Of a stretch of DNA of 64,000 nt, positions 4,491 through 63,300 are shown in pieces. This DNA comes from Ulota crispa (Eukaryota > Streptophyta > Bryopsida > Orthotrichales > Orthotrichaceae): positions 17,208,471-17,272,470 of the forward strand of contig OY987247.1 in assembly GCA_963920765.1 (NCBI GenBank), in the 5' to 3' direction. The position numbers were made by a program, and so were the translations under genes. A model generated the notes under the pieces. That model searched no databases. It was not told the origin of the DNA and saw only the letters and a list, made by a program, of their open reading frames with translations. The stretch's first letter is position 1. Each line of letters starts with the position of its first letter.

Positions 4491-7400
4491 TATTCATTTA
4501 TTTATATTTATATACTCAAAATCTTGTAATAAAGTAATGTCTGGCCATGATGATAATGTGCAATTTTCTAAGGGTGCTATTTGTCATGTTTTTTCAGAGA
4601 AACCATGAATCTCATAATGGCGAGAGGGCATAGTCGCATACCAGTGTACTCCGAAAACCCCAGCCATGTCATTGGCCTTGTTCTGGTACTCTCCACTCTT
4701 TTCAGAACATAATGGAATTCTATCATGAGCTGCTCTTTTTGAAACAGCCTCTCAGGCATGTTTTTTATTGCTACCACTGCCAAGTAGAAAGAAAGATAAT
4801 CTTGATTCTAGGCAAGACAGTAGTCTTAAAACTTGCTGGCTAAGTACAACTGGTCATGTTTATTTGTGCTTTTTTATTTTAGTTTTAGACTTTGGTATAT
4901 GTCTTTAACTTTGGTATTTTGTCTTTGACTCTGGTATTTTGCTTTAGACTCTGGTGTTTTGGTTTAGATTCTGGTGTTTGCTCAGTTTCTGGGGCCTGGT
5001 TTAGAGACGCATTGATGTTCCCAAGTTTCAACTGCAGAAGGGCAGATGTTGTGAGTGTAAAGCTCCTTGAGGCTGACAGCAGAGTCGCCATGTCTCTTCT
5101 CAGGTGAAGAATCTGCTGGCTATCAGGCCGCAAGACGAGACACCTGTCAGAAACTGCACCATCCGAAAACTTCCGAGGTATTCACATATGAGTGCTTGTA
5201 AACTAAACGAGGAGAACTCATAAATAAGGGCATGAAACTGTAAAGTGATTACAAATACGGGCTCATCCACAAAAATATTTAATGTTCTTTGTTCATTAAT
5301 TTTATAGTTGGCTGCCAATTGCTTGCTCTGCTCATTGCTCAACCTTTGGTACAACCTATAGAGACAAGCTTTTTTCTGGTTGTTGACTTGCTAAGAGAAA
5401 GTGCAGTAATAGTAATGTGGTTGAGCCCCTATTTTGTAATTATTTTGTGATTCTGTGGAGCAATGCCCTTGTACATTCAATCGAAGTCAAGCTCACATTC
5501 AACTTGCTAAATGAAAGCCCACCAAGTGAATTGGAAGAGATGAATTGCTGTTTGTAGCAGGGATCAGTTAAACAGGAGACAATGTTTAAGGTTTGGTGTT
5601 TAGTATCATATCCTTAGAAGCAACCTTCCATATTGGCTTTGGATTCATAAAACCAAGAAACCACAAACAATTTCACATTGCAAATCTGTTTGTTGTTTCT
5701 GAGTTTTACTATTCTGGGGCAACATGGAAGTTTGCTCTTAATGTGAGAGCCAAAGTCATCATCCTCAAATGAGGAAACAAACTCCACTGAACAGGGTAAG
5801 TGAAGAAATGCCCCTGTATGACATTTTAAACGAGTTTCAAAAGGGCCATAGCCACATGGCCGTTGTTGTGAAGTACAACATGGAAAAGTCGCAGTACCTG
5901 CAACACGACCGAGAACTGAAGCTCGATCGAAGGAAGTCCAACAAGAAACCAACCTCCCCTCAGGATCGAAAGAGTACAAGATGTAAGCACTTCCACCTGG
6001 AAGCCCTCCTTCACAAACCTCTCTCAATCTAGATCACAAGAATCACACTCAAAGTAAGACATTTTCATGCTTTATTACATGGTTTTCCTACAGTTTTTGG
6101 AATTCCTTGCTTTACTCATACATCCAGAATCTGAAGAAAATTCTGCTTTTATTACATTTTTATCTTTACATTTCAGTGATCCTTGGTTTACCCATACTTC
6201 TAGAATTAGGACATTAATCTGCTTTTATTACATGTTTTTTCTTACGGTTTCAGTGGTCTTTGCTTTACCCATACTAGGACATTAATCTGGTTTTGTTGCA
6301 AGTTTATCTTACGGTTTTAGCGATCCTTGCTTTTCTGATACTTCTAAAATTTGAACATTTTCCTGGTTTTATTACTTTTTAATCAATTCCGGTGATCCTT
6401 GCTTTGCCCCTACTTCTAGAATTAGGACATTAGTCTGTTTTTGCTACATGTTTATCTTACGGTTTCAATGATCCTTGCTTTCTGATACTTCTGGAGTTTG
6501 GACATTTTTCTGGTTTTGTTGCAAGTTTATCTTAGATTTTTTCAGTGATCCTGGTTTACCCATACTTCTAGAATTAGGACATTAATCTGCTTTTGTTACA
6601 CATTTATCTTTCGGTTTCAGTGATCCTTGCTATACCCATACTTCTAGATTAGGACGTTTATGTGATTTTGTCACGTGGTTATCTTACGGTTTCAGTGATC
6701 CTTGCTTTCTGATACTCCTAGAATTTCAACATATTCCTGCTTCTATTACATTTCTATCTTAAAACTTCAGTGATCCTTGGTTTTATTATACTTCTAGAAA
6801 TAGGACATTAATCTGCTTTGTTGCATGTTTATCTTAAAATTTCAGTGATCCTTGCTTTGCCCATACTTCTAGAATTAAGGCATTAATATGCTTTTATTAT
6901 GTGTTTATCTTACGGTTTCAGTGGTCCTTGCTTTTCTGATACTTTCCTCGTATGCTGGGCATGGGAAGCACGGCGCTTCCAGCGTACAAGTATTTGGCGC
7001 TGGACATGCCGGCTGAGAAAATAGAGTTCAGTCCGGAGGTGGCAGCAGGTGTGGAGACGGAGCAGGAGGGATCAGTGGTGGCGGCCACGGTGGTGAGGCC
7101 TCCAGCAACAACAGCAGCAGCAGCAGCAGGCTTCGAGGGGCTGCATCCCCAGCGGAGCAAGAAATGGGAGCGGTCCCCGGTCGACGATGTGTTGGACGTG
7201 GAGGCGAAGTTGGCTGCACTGCCGAGTTTTTCTTCGGACGAGGAGGTCACGGGCCTCATCACCATGGAAGATGTCATTGAAGAGCTTCTGCAGGTCTGGT
7301 TTTTCATCCAACCACCAAAAAATTCTTCTTCATAGATATTACCAGAAAAAAACTGTTGAAATGTGCTTAAAAATCAACTTTGAAACGGTGGTTTTCACAT

Positions 7401-9690: not shown

Positions 9691-10844
9691 TAGAATATTA
9701 ATTCTATTTGTGTGATTTTATGCATTTAAACTAACATGTATACAGAATTGTGAAGAGATCACTTTTAAGTGTAACAGCCAAATTCATTGAGATCAAATTT
9801 TTATTGATGTGTTTGACTTTTTAATATAATTTCATGGTGGGGGTTGTAAATCACCCCGGGTAACAGTAAATAACCCCATTTCCATTTCAAGATTAGTAAC
9901 CATAGACATTCATCCAAACCAAGCTTGCTGTCATCTTGTTAATTCAAGTCCAACCAAATATCTGAATAGATGACTTGTTGGTAACAAGGAGTTCGTATTG
10001 GAGATTGGGACCCTGACTGTTTTGATATCCACTAATAGGATCCAAAAAACCATTTTCAAAGTTAAAAACATCCCTGGCTCCAAAATATTATAAACCTTAA
10101 AGGAAAACAAAGCAACAAGATGTACACGAAGCCCTACAGCGATAGCAACAAACTTGATTTCATAGAGCACGTAAGGGTGATACAACAACACCCTTGCCAC
10201 TTTTCTTTTCTCTTTTCAAGCAAGTTTAAAACATCCTTCAACAAAAAAGTCATAACATTCCTCATGAGGGTCAAATTCCATGCTGCATTAAAATTGAGGA
10301 ACTCCGAAAACAACAAAGGAGTTACAGAGTCATGCATGGAAGAGTGTTGGAAAACAACATAACAAAAAGTTAGAAATGGTGTTCCAGCAAGTTTCTACCC
10401 AGAAGCACATAAATTTTGGGGAGGTGGGTTGTTTCTCAAGTTGGAAAACGCATATCACCATGGTCAGTTCTAATGCAACATGAAAGCCTGCCCTAAGAAA
10501 TGCCTTTAGAAAAGACTAAGCAAATTATTCCTCGTTGAATCTTACAGAGACCTCAAACATAGATACTCCAAAAGCGACATTTCTCTCTTCTACAAAATTC
10601 ACCAAAAACATTCCATCCGTGCATGACTGGATCTTGTATTAACAAATGAGTAATTTACAGCTTGTTTGCAACGGACCTCAATCACAAGTCCTGTAGAACT
10701 ACAACAGGTCCCACCCAAAAAAAGTTTCGGCATAATCTACCCCAGGCCATACCAAGTACCAAAAAAGCTGCTTGCTAACACACTTGCTACAATTCGTGGT
10801 ATCAAGCAATCGCTCATACCTTACAACCAATTCAAAACCATGAA

Positions 10845-10908
10845 AACCCTTAAACCCTAAACCCTAACCCTAACCCTAGCCCTAACCCTAAATCCTTAAA
10901 CCCTAACC
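10845..10908. repeat. Interstitial telomere-like repeat block
   Basis: About 64 bases of degenerate telomere units, mixing the plant type CCCTAAA with CCCTAA and a CCCTAG variant. It lies 170 bp downstream of the STP stop codon, possibly in its 3' UTR. Confidence 0.85.
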
Positions 10909-24440: not shown

Positions 24441-24800
24441 ATATTTGGATAAAGAACTAATATTTTCTCAATAATCTACATATAATGTGGACGGGTGTAA
24501 ATAACTTCATTCCCTTGAATAAATTAATCTCTTTATCCGGACATGGCCCAATGTCTCAACATCATCCCATCTTTTAAATTTGACCAAAAAGTTTTTGGAA
24601 TTAAGTCTTGGTAGAATTACAAATAGTGTAGTTTAGGCCTTGACCTTTGCAAATGCAAACAGGGACTCGAAACAGACTGGATTATAGATCATAAGCTTAC
24701 AGGTCTCTGCTGGTCATTTCAATGCAGTGACAATTGAGCAAACATATCAGGGCAAGGACGATGGTACTCTCTGCCATTCTAGACGTCCATTCTGGTCTAT

Positions 24801-25229
24801 TGGTGTGCGTTTGGTATAATGGTGTGGGTTTGGTATAATGGTGTGGGTTTGGTATAATGGTGTGGGTTTGGTATAATGGTGTGGGTTTGGTATAATGGTG
24901 TGGGTTTGGTATAATGGTGTGGGTTTGGTATAATGGTGTGGGTTTGGTATAATGGTGTGGGTTTGGTATAATGGTGTGGGTTTGGTATAATGGTGTGGGT
25001 TTGGTATAATGGTGTGGGTTTGGTATAATGGTGTGGGTTTGGTATAATGGTGTGGGTTTGGTATAATGGTGTGGGTTTGGTATAATGGTGTGGGTTTGGT
25101 ATAATGGTGTGGGTTTGGTATAATGGTGTGGGTTTGGTATAATGGTGTGGGTTTGGTATAATGGTGTGGGTTTGGTATAATGGTGTGGGTTTGGTATAAT
25201 GGTGTGGGTTTGGTATAATGGTGTGGGTT
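24801..25229. repeat. 19-bp minisatellite, 22 units plus a partial one
   Basis: Unit TGGTGTGGGTTTGGTATAA, virtually identical in every copy apart from one base in the first unit. Because 19 is not a multiple of 3 and the unit has no stop on the minus strand, the array is open in all three minus frames and mimics a coding region with a 19-residue period. It is not a gene. Confidence 0.97.
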
Positions 25230-49079: not shown

Positions 49080-49270
49080 ATACCTTTCTCGGCCTTTTGG
49101 CTAAGATCAAGTGTAGTATCTGTTCTTATCAGTTTAATATCTGATACGGGGGTCATCGACCTCCATGATATTAATCTAATTATTCTCGGGTGCGAGGCCA
49201 CCCGGCAGCTTGCTGCCCGGCTCCGTGCGCGTCGCCTTGGTCTTGCACTACCTCCTTGGCTGGCGCAGCC
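49080..49270 (+). ncRNA. U2: U2 spliceosomal snRNA
   Basis: The 5' 65 nt match the near-invariant U2 sequence: ATACCTTTCTCGGCCTTTTG start, the branch-site recognition segment GTGTAGTATC and stem-loop IIa (CAGTTTAATATCTGATA). Stem IIb is GGGGTC-ATC-GACCTC, fully paired. GGCAGC-TT-GCTGCC forms stem III. The GGTCTTGCACTACC block is stem-loop IV, the U2A'/U2B'' site. Length of about 191 nt is normal. The single-stranded Sm region reads AATTATTCTCGG (about 49178-49189) rather than the usual uninterrupted U run, which is odd for a functional copy. The exact 3' end was set by the closing stem and is uncertain by a few bases. Confidence 0.95.
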
Positions 49271-49272
49271 CT

Positions 49273-49290
49273 CATTCCCTCGGAGGGAAA
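49273..49290 (+). terminator. Plant snRNA 3' box (candidate)
   Basis: CA, nine bases, then AGGGAAA: one mismatch to the plant 3'-end-formation consensus CA(N3-10)AGTNNAA. It sits immediately after the U2 coding region. Confidence 0.5.
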
Positions 49291-51659: not shown

Positions 51660-52610
51660 ATCAACAGAAATTTTGGAATCTTTTGAGGATCTTTTGGGAA
51701 TTTTTGTGAATCTTTAAGAATCTTCAAGAATCTTTTGGAAATCATTGAGAATCTCTTCAAGATTTTAAAAAATATTTAAGAATCTTTTTGAGATTTTAGA
51801 ATCTTTGAGAATCTTTTTGAAATCTTCATGAATCTTTGGAAATCTTTTGAAATCTTTTCAAGTTTTTTGGAATCTTTGAGAATGTTTGAGAACAATTGAG
51901 AATCTTTGAGAATGTTTGAGAACAATTGAGAATCTTTGAGAATCTTTTAGAAATCTTCAATAATCTTTGGAAATCTTTGGAAATCTTTTTAAGTTTTTTT
52001 GGAATCTTCGAGAATGTTTGAGAACAATTGAGAATCTTTGAGAATCTTTGAGAATCTTTTCAAAATCTTCATGAATCTTTGGAAATCTTTTGAAATCTTT
52101 TCAAGTTTTTTGGAATCTTTGAGAATGTTTGAGAACAATTGAGAATCTTTGAGAATCTTTGAGAATCTTTTAGGAATCTTCAATAATCTTTGGAAATCTT
52201 TGGGAATCTTTTCAAGTTTTTTTGGAATCTTTGAGAGTATTTGAGAACAATTGAAAATCTTTGAAAATCTTTGAGAATCTTTTAGGAATCTTTGAGAATC
52301 TTTTAGGAAGATTTGAGAATTCTTGAGAATCTTTAAGAATAGTTTGGAATATTTGAGAATCTTTGGAAATGTTCTAGGAATTTTGAATTTTTTTAAGAAT
52401 TTTTGAAAATCTTTATGAATAATCTTGGAATCTTCCTGGAAGCTTTGAGAAGCTTTGAGAATCTTTAAGAATCTTTGGAAATCTTTGGGAATCTTTTGAA
52501 AATCTATTTTGAAATTCAAAAAATCTTTGAAAATCTCTAAGAATTTTCAAGAACCTTTTTGGAATCTTTGAGAATCTTTTTAAAATCTTTATGAAATTTG
52601 TTAAAGTACT
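51660..52610. repeat. GAATCTTTGA short-period repeat array with a 110-130 bp higher order
   Basis: About 950 bp of 10-12 base units (GAATCTTTGA, GAAATCTTTG). A longer unit containing AAGTTTTTTGGAATCTTTGA and GAGAACAATTGAGAATCTTT recurs near 51859, 51992, 52102 and 52215. It leaves a 176-codon minus-strand frame open by periodicity only. Confidence 0.9.
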
Positions 52611-53454
52611 TCAAAATACTTATAGAAATAGAATCTCTTAAACTGAATTAGAGTCCTTTAGGAATCTTTTTGTAATTCATCAAAATACTTTAAAATGTTT
52701 TTAACAAAAAAACTATCACAATAGTTTAGGTTTGTTTTTGAAATCTTTCTAGAATCTTTTTGGACCCCATTAAATTTTTTTGAAGTTTTAAAAAATAAAA
52801 GAAGTTTTTAAAAAAAAAGAATCTTTTAAAAGTTTGAGTGTACATTGACTGGTTTTATTTTCTTTACTTTTCACAATTTGGTAAGATTTAAAATTAGCAG
52901 CCTTTAAAGTCAAGTAAAAACATGACCATAACAACAAAAAAATTAATAGTTTTCTGTTGATCTGGACACTTTCGGACACAACTTCACTAATTCAACAAAG
53001 TTTTATATAAAAAGTACAACATTTTGTTGTTTTAAATACCAAAATTTCTTTACAAACAAATATAAAAGATGCTCCTCAATTCTTTGGAGAAATCATATAT
53101 GTCCCTTAAGGATTAAAAGTACCAAAAATATCTTTGTGTTACATGATAACCAAGTGTATAGTTTAATGCAAATTCATACAAGAAACCAAAGGTGATTTTT
53201 ACATTTCAAATAACACAAGGATATATTTAACATTTCAAAATAGAAGAGCTTTTTTATTATTTTTCCAAAATAATAGGAGTATAATTGATATTCCTACAAA
53301 AAATAAGGACTATTTTTTATGTTTCACATATTTTTGGTGTAAACTTGATATCTTGAAAGATTTAAAGGGTAATTTTAGTATTTTTCCTTCTATTACTAAG
53401 CAAATGAATAAAAAAAAAACAATCTTATAAAATATTTTATAAGCTTTAAAAGAT

Positions 53455-53866
53455 GGGAATTGATATGTGTACCACACCCTTCCAATTATTATACCACACC
53501 ACGAGGTAAATTTTAGATTTCTACCATCAAAAAGTTGAATTTAAAAATTTTGAATTCAAATTTAGACTTAGAAACCATGGTATTGTCTAGAACCATAAAA
53601 AATGTTGCAATTCAACAACACCCAATGAAAAAGTTTAGTTAGGGAGAAAATTGTTAATTTTACTTTTGTTTGTAAAAAAAGATAAGCGTTTTCATTGGGT
53701 GTTGTTGAATTGCAACTTTTTTTATGGTCTTAGACAATACCATGGTCTCTAACTCCAAATTTGAATTCAAAATTCTCAAACTCAAATTTTTGATGGTAGA
53801 AATCTAAAACTTACCCCAAGGGTGTGGTACAGTAGTTCAAAGGGTGTGGTTCACATATTAATGCCC
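53455..53866. mobile_element. Long-TIR MITE (Mutator-like) nested in the CACTA element
   Basis: Inverted arms of about 180 bp: left GGGAATTGATATGTGTACCA, right complement GGGCATTAATATGTGAACCA. Arms include ATTTCTACCATCAAAAA and GCAATTCAACAACACCCAAT in both copies. TTAAAA abuts both ends (possible remnant of a 9-bp duplication). 412 bp. Confidence 0.82.
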
Positions 53867-54384
53867 TTAAAAATATCCAAAGCTATTCAAAAGTCTATAG
53901 AATTTTGATTTTATAATTGCAAGGTTTTAATTCCGTAACTTTTCACGACTTCATGTTATTTGAAGCTATCAAACTATGGAGGCTATTTTAACAAAATAAG
54001 GTTCTTTTTACAAAAAAACTAGCACTAAATAATAATTATTAATGAATCCAACCTTTGCCTGCAACAATCCTTATGAGATTTGTAAATTCCAAAAAAAATT
54101 TATAAACAAAATCAAAAGGATGGAAATAAACAATTTATTTAAAATTTCTAAACACCTTCTTTGATATTAGCTCATAACTTTTGATAAAAAGATTGAAATC
54201 CAAAAAAAAATTGTTGGAGGTGAAAGTAAAATACATTTACCAACTTTTCTTAGTTCTAAGTTTTTTGAAAAAAAATCCTTGAATGGGCAGAAATAGCCTC
54301 TAAAGTCTATTGGATTACTACAGACATGAACATTTAATGTACAAATAGAATCAAGATACCCATGCGTGCATATGTATTTGCACA

Positions 54385-57305: not shown

Positions 57306-60300
57306 ATGAAGGTCATCGACAAGATCAACAATGGCCTGGCGAACGGCAATGTCGTCTTCTCCTTCGAGTTCTTCCCGCCCAAGACGGAGGAGGGCGTGGA
57401 GAATCTGTACGACCGGATGGATCGCATGGTGATGCACCAGCCGGCGTTCTGCGACATCACGTGGGGCGCTGGCGGGTCCACGTCCGCCGTTACCCTCGAC
57501 ATCGCCAACAATATGCAGAACATGGTACGCACGCCGAGGAATGTGGACTTGCACTTGCGTCCCTTGTTGCTATGCTGGTGTTCCTTTCCTCATGGCTATG
57601 GAGTCGAGCTTTTTGGACTGTTCACTAGATTTGCGTTTGCAGCATCCTGTGTTGTTGAGTTAAAACCCTCTCTTGTTTGAAATCCTCAAATTGATACTGA
57701 GCTAGAGAGCAAGAACGTGCTGGACTGGGCTGGACTGGTGATCTTGGAGAGATTGTACCAGAGATCCTCACTTCACGGGACGGTGGAATCCGAGCGCACT
57801 TTTATTGGGATATTCTCTGTCGTGGGGCTGAGAAATGGATATTTTTTGTGTGCAGATTTGTGTTGAGACCATGATGCATCTGACCTGCACCAACATGCCG
57901 GAGGAGAAGCTGGATGAGGCTCTGGACAATGTGAAGGCTAATGGCATCCACAACATCCTTGCTCTGCGGGGCGATCCTCCTCATGGACAGGACAAGTTTG
58001 TGACTATTGAGGGAGGGTTTTCTTGTGCGTTGGATTTGGTAAGCACTGCAACCATTTTGTTTAATCCTATGAATGAGAGTGCAAATTTAGCGTCACTACA
58101 CAGCTTTGTGGAAACTAAGTACACGACAGAATTGTTTTAACTTGCACTTACTGAATTTCACTTCGAATAATCACTCTAGAGAATATGTGTCACGTATTAA
58201 AAGGACGTATCAGTGTAGTACATGGTGCATTCACACGTATGACATTGGAAGATAAGTAGAATCGAGAGTGAACACTTGAACATTAGATCATAGTTATTAT
58301 TAGGGTTGCTTTCTGGCAGTTGATTGATGGTTCCAATGCATCATAGCATCTATTTTCTTGACACCAAATAATTAGTCTGTGAACATTTAATGGATTAGGT
58401 GTCGGTGCACCTGAAATTAACCTTGAGCTCTGATGTTCAGATCATGTACATTTAGGCATTAATCTAGAGGACACCCTTGTGGTATGGTTGGAGGTAGAAT
58501 TTCTTACGTGCTGATGTTTAAAAGAGTATATTGAATTGAAATTTTGCAAGGTTTCATTTGTCGTGAGATGAAATGGTTATGAATGATACGGTGCAGGTTA
58601 GGCACATCAAAGCCAAATATGGCGATTACTTTGGAATCACTGTCGCTGGATATCCGGGTATGTTGCAAGCTTCTACTCTTTCCATCCCGCAGTTTTGGTC
58701 TTAGTTTTGGAACTGTTATTCAAGTAGAGACACGTGCATTATACAGTGACTTCAAAAAATGAGTCTATGTGGGTATTTGGGTCAGAAAAGTGACATTGTA
58801 GAGAGTGTGAAAAATCAAACCAAAAAAATTTAAACACAAAAGTTTGAAAGCATGAGGTAACACATCATGCAAAAAAAATGAAAAAATATTGCTACTAAAT
58901 TTAAAAAATATATAATGTTAAAGTTGACTATGTACATAGACTCATGTTTTGAGGCCGGTATTCTTACAACTTCAAATGGGTGTAGAATTTAGAGAATTTG
59001 TGTTTTTTGGTGAATTTTTTTGTGGTTTCTCTTCTTGCCTCTTTGTAGAACATATTGTATTGTGTAGAAAGTGAAATTGGCATGATGAAGCCAATTTCAA
59101 GATAGAAAACAAGAGATATTGATGCTCTTTTTATGAAAGATAAGAGTGTAAGAGAGATTGCGAAATTTCTTGGTTTCTCACAAAGTACATTGAATAGAGT
59201 GAGGAGGAAAGTTTGTAGTAGCTTAGAATTGCCAAAACAAGATGCCACTGCATCATAAAAGCGGCATGTAGTATGTTTGGTCATGGTTGGAGGGCTAGAA
59301 ATGACATCACAAGTAGTAGAAGTATTGAAAGAGGGTAGAGAGGTAGGGTTTTGTGACAATACACTATAGTAGGCTTTGAGAGATGCCAAATTGAGTGCTT
59401 GTGAGAAGGTGTCAAAGTTTTATTTGTCACAGAAACATGCACTTGCTTTGCAACAATTCACAAAAATTAGATTGTAGAGGATTGGAAGAGATTTTTTTTA
59501 GTAATGAGAGGAAAATAAATTGTTTAAATGCAAATGGGACTATGGGAGGGCCTGGTGTTGGGTCAATGACAATGAAAGTTTGCTTGATTGTGGAGTGAAG
59601 CATGCAAAGAAGCATGGTAGAGGTCTTTGATGCTATAGAGTTGCATGACATCAAGAGGTCTAGGTGATTTATAGAATGTGGATGATCGTTTAAATGCATA
59701 AGACTATATTTCAATCTTACATGAAGATTTGTACTTGGGTTTGGGAAGATTAACATTTTTCAACATTGATGGAGTTATTTTTGAGCATGAGAATGCTCCT
59801 ATTTATAAAACAAAGATTGTTCAAAAATGATTTTAAGAGCATCTATTTACTATTTTAGAGTGACTAACTCAATCTTTGGACCCAAATCCGATAGAACATG
59901 ATTGGGAAATTTTCAAACATTGTTTAAATTCCTACCCAACTCCTCAAGCGGATCTTTTACAATTATGGGAATATGTGCAGGACACTTTTAGAGCCATTAC
60001 TATAAAACAATATGAGAAATTACATACTAGCATGCCAAGTCAAATTTCAGTTGTTTTGGTTGCCTGTGACAAGTAGATAAAATTTTGATCACTTTGTATA
60101 TACCACCTCAAAAAATGAGTCTATGTACATAGTCAACTTTAGCATTATGTATTTCTTAATTTAGTAGCAATGTTTTTTCAAATTTTTAGAGATGATGTGT
60201 TACCTCATGCTCTCAAAATTTTGTGTTTAAATTTTTTTGATTTGATTTTTCATACTCTCTACAATATCACTTTTCTGACCCAAATACTCACATAGACTCA

Positions 60301-63300
60301 TTTTTTGAAGTCACTGTATATTTAAAATTAGATTTATCACGGTTTCCAATAATCTGAATTAATACTATATCATGGTGATATAGGCTTCTCCTACTTAGTT
60401 TTCATCCCCCATTATGTGAGCTCCTAGCAGTTTGACGTTTCCAGGGTCATGTAATAGAGAGGTCATCATTAAAGCAGATCTTTAAGAATTGTTCGAGTCC
60501 ATGAGAGATTTGTGTCGGAAGATGACAATAACAATGGCCCTGTGTGCTATATGGAGGCATTCGCATTTGTGATTGAGCTTCAGTACATTTATCCTACATA
60601 TTTGACACTTCTCTTCAGAAATTCGTGGGAGAGGACATTGTAGATGTCAGTAATCTCTAAAGATCTATCAAAGCAGAGTGTATCAGATATTTCTGGTATA
60701 TGATTTCTTTTTGACAATATTAAGCATATAGTCTCAAATAATAATTAGTATTGTGTTTGTCACCATTGTTGCCACTGTTTGTCTCAGAAATATATTTTCT
60801 GGCACGGTTTAAGTATGCTGGGATTTATTGCAGAGGCTCACCCTGAGGTCATTGATGATTCTGGAACCGCCACCGAAGAGGTTTACCAGAAGGATCTAGC
60901 GTACCTGAAGGAGAAGGTGTGTATTGTTGGTTTCGGTTGTTCTCTAGGGCAAAGAGTATCAGATTTACTTGTAATATGAGCTCGTTTTGTATATACTGGG
61001 ATTGTGTTTAATATGTTGGAGTTTCTGCATTTCACAGCACATCAGTAACTCTGGAATCTTGGTGGATTCATTGAAGCGTTTTTTCTTGCGCTTTTGCAGT
61101 GTGATGCAGGCGCAGAAGTCATTGTCACCCAACTTTTCTATGACACTGATGTGTACCTCAAGTTCGTGAATGACTGCCGTCAAATTGGAATCAAGGTGCC
61201 AGTGGTTCCTGGCATTATGCCCATTCAGAACTACAAGGGCTTTCTCCGCATGACTAGCTTGTGCAAAACGAAGGTACGGACTTTGCTTCATGTCCTCACC
61301 ACTGGAATTTGCATAGCCAAGCGTCACACGCAGGTCATTATGACGTTTTTTATACTTGTAAAATTGAAACAGTAGTCATGGTGAACCAAGTCATTAAAAA
61401 CCGGTTAAAAACAACAACAACAATAGCTACCTGTTTATTGTGAAAGTTTTTGATTTGATTAACTTTCAGGTGCCTGCTGAAATTATTGCTGCGCTAGAGC
61501 CCATCAAAGATAACGACGAAGCAGTAAGGGCGTACGGCATCCACTTGGGAACAGAAATGTGCAAAAAGATTTTGGCCCATGACATCAAAACATTGCACTT
61601 GTACTCTCTCAATCTGGAGAAGTCCGTTCTTGCCATTCTACAGGTATTTCATGATACCAGGATCTTTTTTTTTTGAAGTATTCTGTGTGAAATCTCGATA
61701 TTGTGTTCATGGGAACCCGAGTTCTTATGCTGGTCGTTATTTCTTTCAGAATCTGGGTTTAATCGATTTCAGCCGGGTCAACCGTTCCTTGCCATGGAGA
61801 CCTCCTGCCAACAGCAAGCGAACAAAGGAGGACGTGCGTCCGATCTTCTGGTGCGCCTCTTTAACTCATATTTGACCTTCCTTCTGTTTTCTACATTTTC
61901 TATGTACAGATTTTATTTGAAACTTTACTGGATACCGTGATCGCCTTAAAGATCTATTCGCTTTGTTATATCTACATCTTTCCATTGTCGATTTAAGCTG
62001 AAGTAGGTTATAACCTACATACAATGTATCTACCTTTCGTGTTTGGGTTGTGCGGTTTTTATCCCTGATTAGGCCTTCACTTACATTAGTACTCACAGGG
62101 TGGAATTTAAAATAACACCTAATCAAATTTCACTTTACCGTTATTTAGGAACGAGATATCGTAATTCTAAGTCAATGTTTTTCTTGTCATTTCAGGGCTA
62201 ATAGACCTAGAAGCTATCTCTCGCGAACCACTGGCTGGGACGAGTTTCCTCGTGGCAGATGGGGAGATACCGGAAACCCTGCTTATGGCAGTCTGAGTGA
62301 TCACCAGGTCAATTTCTAATGGCCTCGTCTTTTAGCATGTGAACTAATGTTTTTCTAGCGTATTTGAGCAGGTTTTGTGGAGCCTTGTTTTTGTCGAGCT
62401 CGTTATATTTAGCGGCATTCACAAGCAAATTTCTAAAGTAATTAAAATCCAGCCCCATTTGAATTGTATTTTTTCACAACATGATCAGTCAAGTGCTTCG
62501 TTTCAAAACCACGATTCCTTGTTCCTTTAGCGGTTTCAACTTTGTCCAGTATACAATGCACCTCTTATACTGGGTATATTGATGTAAAATTGGTGGAGCA
62601 ACCAGTTGCTGAGACGTTGTAGTTGACTTGCAGTTCTTGAGGAAGAAGACACGCGGCAAGAAACTGCAGAAAGAGTGGGCAGTGCCATTGACCTCAGCTC
62701 AAGACGTGAACGGGGTACGAAAGAAACACAATATCCCCCGAACACCCTCTCGTGCTTCTTCTATTGTGACAGCATAAAATTTTAACTCATTCTTAGTGGT
62801 GACTAGGACTAATTTTTTGGCACCATGTTCATTACAGATTTTTGCGAAGTACTGCCAAGGAGGTCTAAGCACGCACCCGTGGTCGGAGCTAGAAGGCATG
62901 CAGCCTGAGACCGTGCAGATCAACGAGAAACTGGTCGCACTAAACAACCAAGGCTTCTTGACGATTAACAGCCAGCCTGCTGTCAATGGCGAGAAGTCAG
63001 ACTCCGCGAGTGTCGGTATGCCTCACATCCCATTCGCAAAAATTGTACTCAGGCGTGGATACCGATGTAGAAATCTCTGAGTTTGTGTTTATTGCTAACA
63101 TTCAGTTTTTGTACTTCAAAACGTATGTTTGTACAGGATGGGGAGGTCCAGGTGGCTTTGTCTACCAGAAGGCATATGTCGAGTTCTTCTGTTCACCTGA
63201 GAAGCTCCAAGCTGTGGTTGAGAAAGCGAAGGCCAACTCGTCCCTGACTTACATTGCAGTGAATGCCAAGGGTGAGACACAGTCCAACGTTGGACCGACC

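Follow-up and report, generated by a model that had tools for sequence, protein, structure and literature searches.

A Tc1-type (DD34E) transposon family of the moss Ulota crispa that was already broken when it spread

A 64,000-nucleotide (nt) stretch of the Ulota crispa genome (Bryopsida; assembly GCA_963920765.1, contig OY987247.1, positions 17,208,471 to 17,272,470 of the forward strand), hereafter the window, contains an MTHFR gene with a Tc1-type transposon in one of its introns. The transposase gene of this element, a member of the family called A1, is broken. The question raised by the locus is how an element of this kind could multiply in a plant genome. The analysis leads to the following answer: A1 is probably a Tc1-type (DD34E) transposon that is dead and non-autonomous, bears two right ends and was mobilised in trans by a related transposase.

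Copies of the family and the state of their founder

The genome searched comprises 274.8 Mb in 157 contigs, the window being located on contig C6 (C10, C11 and C12 measure 15.8 Mb, 6.3 Mb and 19 kb, respectively). The ends of large contigs were sampled four times: two carry TTTAGGG repeats, i.e., the plant-type telomere repeat, and two consist of N. The best 40 of 97 candidates were scored and 118 matches were listed. Among these, 31 span more than 1,400 nt with 86-100% identity and are distributed over contigs C1-C8; the 30 matches other than the window copy are 86-94% identical to it. On C9, a copy is present in pieces. The further copies that the initial annotation proposed to look for thus exist, and the element is no lone fossil. 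Matches to the C-terminal part of the family A transposase are spread across the genome (548 candidates, of which 150 were scored).

Thirty loci (L001-L030) were aligned, i.e., 29 with both ends and one truncated; the 31st copy and the partial matches were left out. The full-ended copies measure 1560-1596 nt and the end repeats 211 nt each. The consensus begins with CAGTGACTTC on the left; its right terminus is CAGCGAC, many copies having CAGTGAC. TA is found on the left of 27 of the 30 copies and on the right of all the 28 that are readable. Kimura two-parameter distances to the consensus average 0.057 (range 0.030-0.077), and pairwise distances average 0.100. Terminal branches make up 89% of the tree length, with some supported sub-clades. 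At the rate of 1% per million years applied by Liu and Yang (PMC4054914), which is not calibrated for this plant, the spread would date back about 5 to 6 million years.

The left 211-nt end was also considered as a mobile unit of its own and rejected: upon scoring the best 40 of 91 candidates, 38 of the 40 matches coincide with A1 ends already listed. The two others are located at C1:27584840, adjoining a transposase match, and at C5:10268371.

The A1 consensus is itself broken, its first part being one frame interrupted only by TAG. Of the 30 aligned copies, 30 have a stop codon at the first stop position, 29 at the second and 30 at the third, and none of these copies has a forward stop-free frame longer than 122 codons. 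With reference to two sister elements, L051 and L052, a 10-nt gap is present in 30/30 copies and an 8-nt insertion in 29/30, the remaining copy being of the shorter length. The length of a T-run also differs, and varies among copies. The first catalytic position is N in 28 copies. Lesions common to 28-30 of the 30 copies mean that the founder was broken before the burst and thus that transposase was supplied from elsewhere: the founder was already dead when it was amplified. The window copy carries the founder lesions too, and therefore arose by multiplication within the lineage and not by a separate entry.

Two other explanations of the broken frames were weighed. First, A1 could have spread with a working transposase, each copy being broken later. 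This autonomous burst would agree with the near full length of the 29 full-ended copies and with their gene-sized remnant. It is nevertheless very improbable, since the first three stops, the 10-nt gap, the 8-nt insertion and the N at the first catalytic position are each found in nearly all copies and are thus older than the spread. Second, a ciliate-like code (TAG/TAA read as Gln, TGA as Trp) would make of the remnant an intact foreign gene, and would fit the first part of the consensus, where TAG is the sole interruption. This reading was rejected and its probability is practically nil: at the stop sites the sisters have TGG, GAG, TTT, TAT, CAA and AAG, so that no constant meaning can be given to the stops, and the 10-nt gap and the 8-nt insertion break the frame under any code.

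The two ends and their inner boxes

Each end of the A1 consensus consists of a terminal box and of an inverted copy of this box 185 nt further in. The arms located between the boxes are identical on the left and on the right (169/169, 100%). The sister L052 (1595 nt) has the same four boxes, and its left and right arms are related at background level only (63%, z 1.8). The A1 right arm is close to the L052 right arm (81%, z 19), whereas the A1 left arm and the L052 left arm are at background level (60%, z 1.3). Eight further relatives were compared for their left arm, L057 being left out: seven have the L052 type, none has the A1 type and L059 has neither. These arm identities lead to the conclusion that the right end of A1 was copied, in inverted orientation, over the left end. 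The inner box may have been the natural switching point of this replacement.

Long terminal repeats could conversely be ancestral and have been lost by the sisters, as long-ended Tc1 elements such as Bari2 and Bari3 are described in PMC4120734. This is improbable for three reasons: (i) the left arms of seven relatives are homologous, and in L052 this arm is unrelated to the right arm; (ii) the two A1 arms match at 100% in the consensus, whereas the identity between the right arms of A1 and L052 is 81%; (iii) the same left arm would have to be substituted in the ancestor of the sisters.

In the 29 full-ended copies, the mean divergence between the two arms is 7.6% (range 2.5-13.5%), compared with a core-to-consensus distance of 5.1%. 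The arms were thus identical, or nearly so, at insertion. According to the results given in PMC4505599, two mariner elements transpose best in vitro when the preferred end is on both sides, and the authors state a similar result for Sleeping Beauty. By analogy, the right end of A1 may be the preferred end, and the double right end may be the cause of the spread.

The replacement of the left end and the loss of the transposase can be arranged in the following scheme. (i) A founder in the plant lineage lost its transposase: the D of the first catalytic position became N, and early stops, the 10-nt deletion and the 8-nt insertion arose. (ii) Its left end, between the terminal and inner boxes, was replaced by the inverted right end, either before or after the loss of the transposase. 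(iii) A related and then-active transposase of the same genome may have acted on the matching ends, cutting and pasting A1 and leaving TA duplications. (iv) About 30 copies would have reached at least eight chromosome-scale contigs in this way, one of them entering the MTHFR intron. (v) The source of transposase seems to have died later, the A1 copies having drifted since.

Several results weigh against this scheme. (i) No intact transposase of A1 type was seen among the matches listed, and the helper is thus only postulated. For the N-terminal part of the transposase, 150 of 155 candidates were scored; no open frame listed for them exceeds 287 codons, and those family B loci (see below) that were translated have stops further on. 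The C-terminal matches scored (150 of 548 candidates) have listed frames of up to 369 codons, with 1-4 stops inside the match. (ii) A working copy may lie among the unscored candidates. (iii) Beyond the third stop the copies agree less well, e.g., the tenth is TGA in 21/30 copies. (iv) The A1-specific changes number 41, 32 and 52 at codon positions 1, 2 and 3, respectively, of 337 each; this distribution is near neutral, but its slight third-position excess implies that part of the A1 branch was still under selection. (v) The supported sub-clades of the copies suggest that there may have been more than one source copy. (vi) The ratio of arm divergence to core distance is 1.49 and not 2, which suggests that some conversion between the arms occurred later or that the insertions postdate the founder.

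The inverted inner box is not restricted to A1. It is found at 184-185 nt in L052, L051 has one too, and L059 has no clear box. Moreover, the genome contains a second and decayed DD34E family, called B (L065-L070, e.g., L066:1096-2684). The protein identity of L066 is 39% with L051 and 33% with the A1 read-through translation. In a search of solved protein chains at E up to 1, family B retrieved the Sleeping Beauty catalytic domain only (5cr4, 4.4e-35). Family B has the same layout as A1 with a box of its own. All the left ends (6/6 copies) have an inverted match of 14-16/20 at 186-190 nt, while the best match in shuffled left ends is about 11 on average with a maximum of 13 to 15. The right ends, for which no shuffling was made, have matches of 13-15/20 at 184-190 nt, that of L070 being irregular in place and letters. 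The stronger argument for the inner boxes of family B is thus the recurrence of a near-constant distance and orientation in twelve ends.

Elements of the inverted repeat/direct repeat (IR/DR) type have two to three direct repeats of the site in each end. On the contrary, the inner box is inverted in A1, in L052 and in 6/6 family B copies. No published case of inverted inner boxes in Tc1 ends was found in the searches made of open-licence papers. It can tentatively be proposed, with rather more doubt than confidence, both that the Tc1 ends of this genome follow an architecture absent from the papers searched (a box plus its inverted copy about 185-190 nt further in, in two DD34E families) and that two right ends made dead A1 a better substrate than its helper, driving its spread.

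The window copy and its surroundings

The features of the window copy are collected in Table 1.

Table 1. Coordinates, in the window, of the A1 copy, its parts and the intron that contains it.
Feature	Position	Strand	Remarks
MTHFR intron holding the A1 element	58658..60833	+	GT...AG, 2176 nt, boundaries by eye
Left TA target-site duplication	58742..58743	.	TA in 27/30 copies
Tc1-type (DD34E) element, non-autonomous family A1, window copy	58744..60316	+	1573 nt, TA on both sides
Left end	58744..58954	+	inter-box arm an inverted copy of the right end; consensus arms 100% over 169 nt
Outer terminal box, left	58749..58770	+	predicted transposase binding site
Inner box, left	58934..58954	-	inverted with respect to the outer left box
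Transposase gene remnant	59082..60088	+	stops and frame changes, mostly family-wide
Helix-turn-helix part of the remnant	59106..59258	+	HTH_38 4.1e-06, 26.9 bits, cut-off 27
First catalytic position	59503..59505	+	AAT (N) in the window copy; D in sisters L051, L052
Second catalytic position	59789..59791	+	GAG (E) in the window copy; D in 21/30 copies
Third catalytic position	59894..59896	+	GAA (E); E in 24/30 copies; 34 residues past the second
Inner box, right	60105..60126	+	inverted with respect to the outer right box
Right end, original	60106..60316	-	inter-box arm 81% to that of sister L052 (consensus)
Outer terminal box, right	60290..60311	-	inverted-repeat match
Right TA target-site duplication	60317..60318	.	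TA in 28/28 readable copies

The initial annotation described a TA-flanked element of 1573 bp in an MTHFR intron. Its limits proved exact, with TA on both sides, and the exons flanking the intron are those of MTHFR (Pfam PF02219, 1.7e-66). The inverted ends of the window copy comprise a 147-nt and a 57-nt block with 91% complementarity in each, i.e., far beyond chance. The element is presumably spliced out together with the intron. Contamination as the source of A1 is very unlikely, because copies are found on eight chromosome-scale contigs and because the insertion splits a gene intron in such a contig. A query made of the joined flanks retrieved the two real flanks and one 62-nt match elsewhere, but no paralogous empty site.

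The second and third catalytic positions are 105 nt apart, i.e., 34 residues lie between them, as first annotated, and the spacing is the same in the A1 consensus. In the window copy, the three positions read N, E and E. In the alignment, the D of the second position is encoded by GAT in 20 copies and by GAC in one. Both sisters, L051 and L052, have the triad D, D, E, with the motifs FSDET and QHDN followed by E 34 residues on. The DD34E class is thus attributed on the basis of the family and of the sister elements, in which the triad is seen (FSDET): the initial assignment holds for the spacing, the family and the sisters but not for the letters of the window copy.

The transposase had rightly been called broken, its stops and frame changes being mostly common to the family. 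Its placement in the Tc1 branch is likewise borne out by the D34E spacing, the CAGTG ends, the TA sites, the DDE_3 domain of sister L051 and the Sleeping Beauty chain retrieved with family B. In Pfam, L051 matches DDE_3 (2.4e-10) and HTH_23 (2e-05) above the cut-offs and HTH_Tnp_Tc3_2 (2.6e-07) just below. The A1 read-through matches DDE_3 below the cut-off (8.2e-06), and the HTH_38 match of the window remnant falls just below its curated cut-off. The features of Tc1-like elements are thus present, i.e., the triad, the TA duplication, CAGT termini with inverted ends, and helix-turn-helix and DDE domains. The arrangement of PlantMar elements (39 residues then D) is not that of A1 (34 residues then E).

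Other features of the window are as follows. A U2 spliceosomal RNA is located at 49080-49273 (full-length model match, 166 bits). Four repeats were recorded: (i) a 75-nt unit repeated 11 times with 72% match at 6104-6934; (ii) an AAACCCT telomere-like interstitial repeat at 10844-10908; (iii) an unusually uniform array of a 19-nt unit repeated 23 times with 99% match at 24793-25229, the surrounding 2-kb stretch having a GC skew of 0.267; (iv) units resembling GAATCTTTGA in a long, decayed array at 51667-52590, the higher-order period of which is 112 nt. No other 2-kb stretch of the window is as rich in A+T as the one that this last array overlaps (52001-54000).

Origin and comparison with known systems

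In the initial annotation, a DD34E copy in a plant was taken to raise the possibility of a horizontal entry or of an under-described plant Tc1 lineage, known plant elements being mostly DD39D mariner-like. Novelty is not supported: in 2014, Liu and Yang (PMC4054914) had already described moss DD34E elements, PpTc1 and PpTc2, together with segments from nine angiosperms. PMC7466625 reports that related sequences were not retrieved from Marchantia, Arabidopsis or rice, a result not easily reconciled with the rice element that Liu and Yang described. The DD39D mariners of plants are a separate family, none having been found in bryophytes according to PMC7325037.

An entry of the A family from a fungus or an arthropod would be compatible with a dead founder bearing two right ends. 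It would find a parallel in the fungal origin proposed from trees for PpTc1 and PpTc2 (PMC7466625, 2020). It is nevertheless rather unlikely, given that older relatives are present in the genome (the sisters have 72-83% DNA identity to the A1 consensus) and that family B represents a second DD34E family, with the low protein identity to L051 given above. The diverged older relatives indicate that the entry, if any, was not recent.

In a protein tree with nine rows, families A and B are each recovered with support, Mos1 being a very long branch. The tree, which has no fungal rows, gives A and B no settled position relative to Sleeping Beauty, Tc1, Tc3 and Minos, and thus speaks neither for nor against an animal or fungal origin. 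No relatives were found in viral contigs, bacterial and archaeal genomes or phages, these collections being without fungi or animals and two of the scans using one short pattern each.

Four consequences can be drawn: (i) A1 extends the set of published plant Tc1 elements; (ii) at least two Tc1 families lived and decayed in this genome; (iii) in vitro work leads one to expect that a dead Tc1/mariner element could spread once one of its ends has been replaced by a copy of the other, provided that the latter is the preferred end, and A1 may be a natural instance of this; (iv) the inverted inner box offers a testable contrast to the direct-repeat ends of Sleeping Beauty. The general understanding of plant transposons is unchanged by these findings.

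Among known systems, PpTc1 and PpTc2 of Physcomitrium patens, as described in PMC4054914, share with A1 the DD34E class, the CAGT ends, the TA sites and a multi-copy state in a plant. They have a transposase of 338 amino acids and lengths of 1,584 and 1,709 bp. By this description, they differ from A1 in their 33-bp end repeats and intact-gene copies, whereas A1 has 211-nt repeats and every translated copy is broken. The PlantMar elements of PMC7325037 are also plant-hosted members of the Tc1/mariner superfamily, but are DD39D while A1 is DD34E.

Sleeping Beauty resembles A1 in being of Tc1 type and in having further transposase sites inside its ends. In Sleeping Beauty, Paris, S, Minos and Bari, however, the inner sites are given as direct repeats (PMC3828361), whereas that of A1 is inverted. 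DrTRT of zebrafish, as presented in PMC5630946, is a Tc1-like element with short end repeats and a 23-bp subterminal inverted repeat; unlike A1 it is DD37E, i.e., with a spacing of 37 and not 34.

Bari2 of Drosophila has, like A1, long identical ends and a mutated transposase (PMC4120734) and is stated to be non-autonomous (PMC4877112). Bari elements differ from A1 in their three direct repeats per end, the inner box of A1 being inverted, and are known from Drosophila. A dead transposase, shared lesions and matching long ends are all found in A1, which describes a state and not a family membership; by analogy, A1 looks like a Bari2-like state reached independently.

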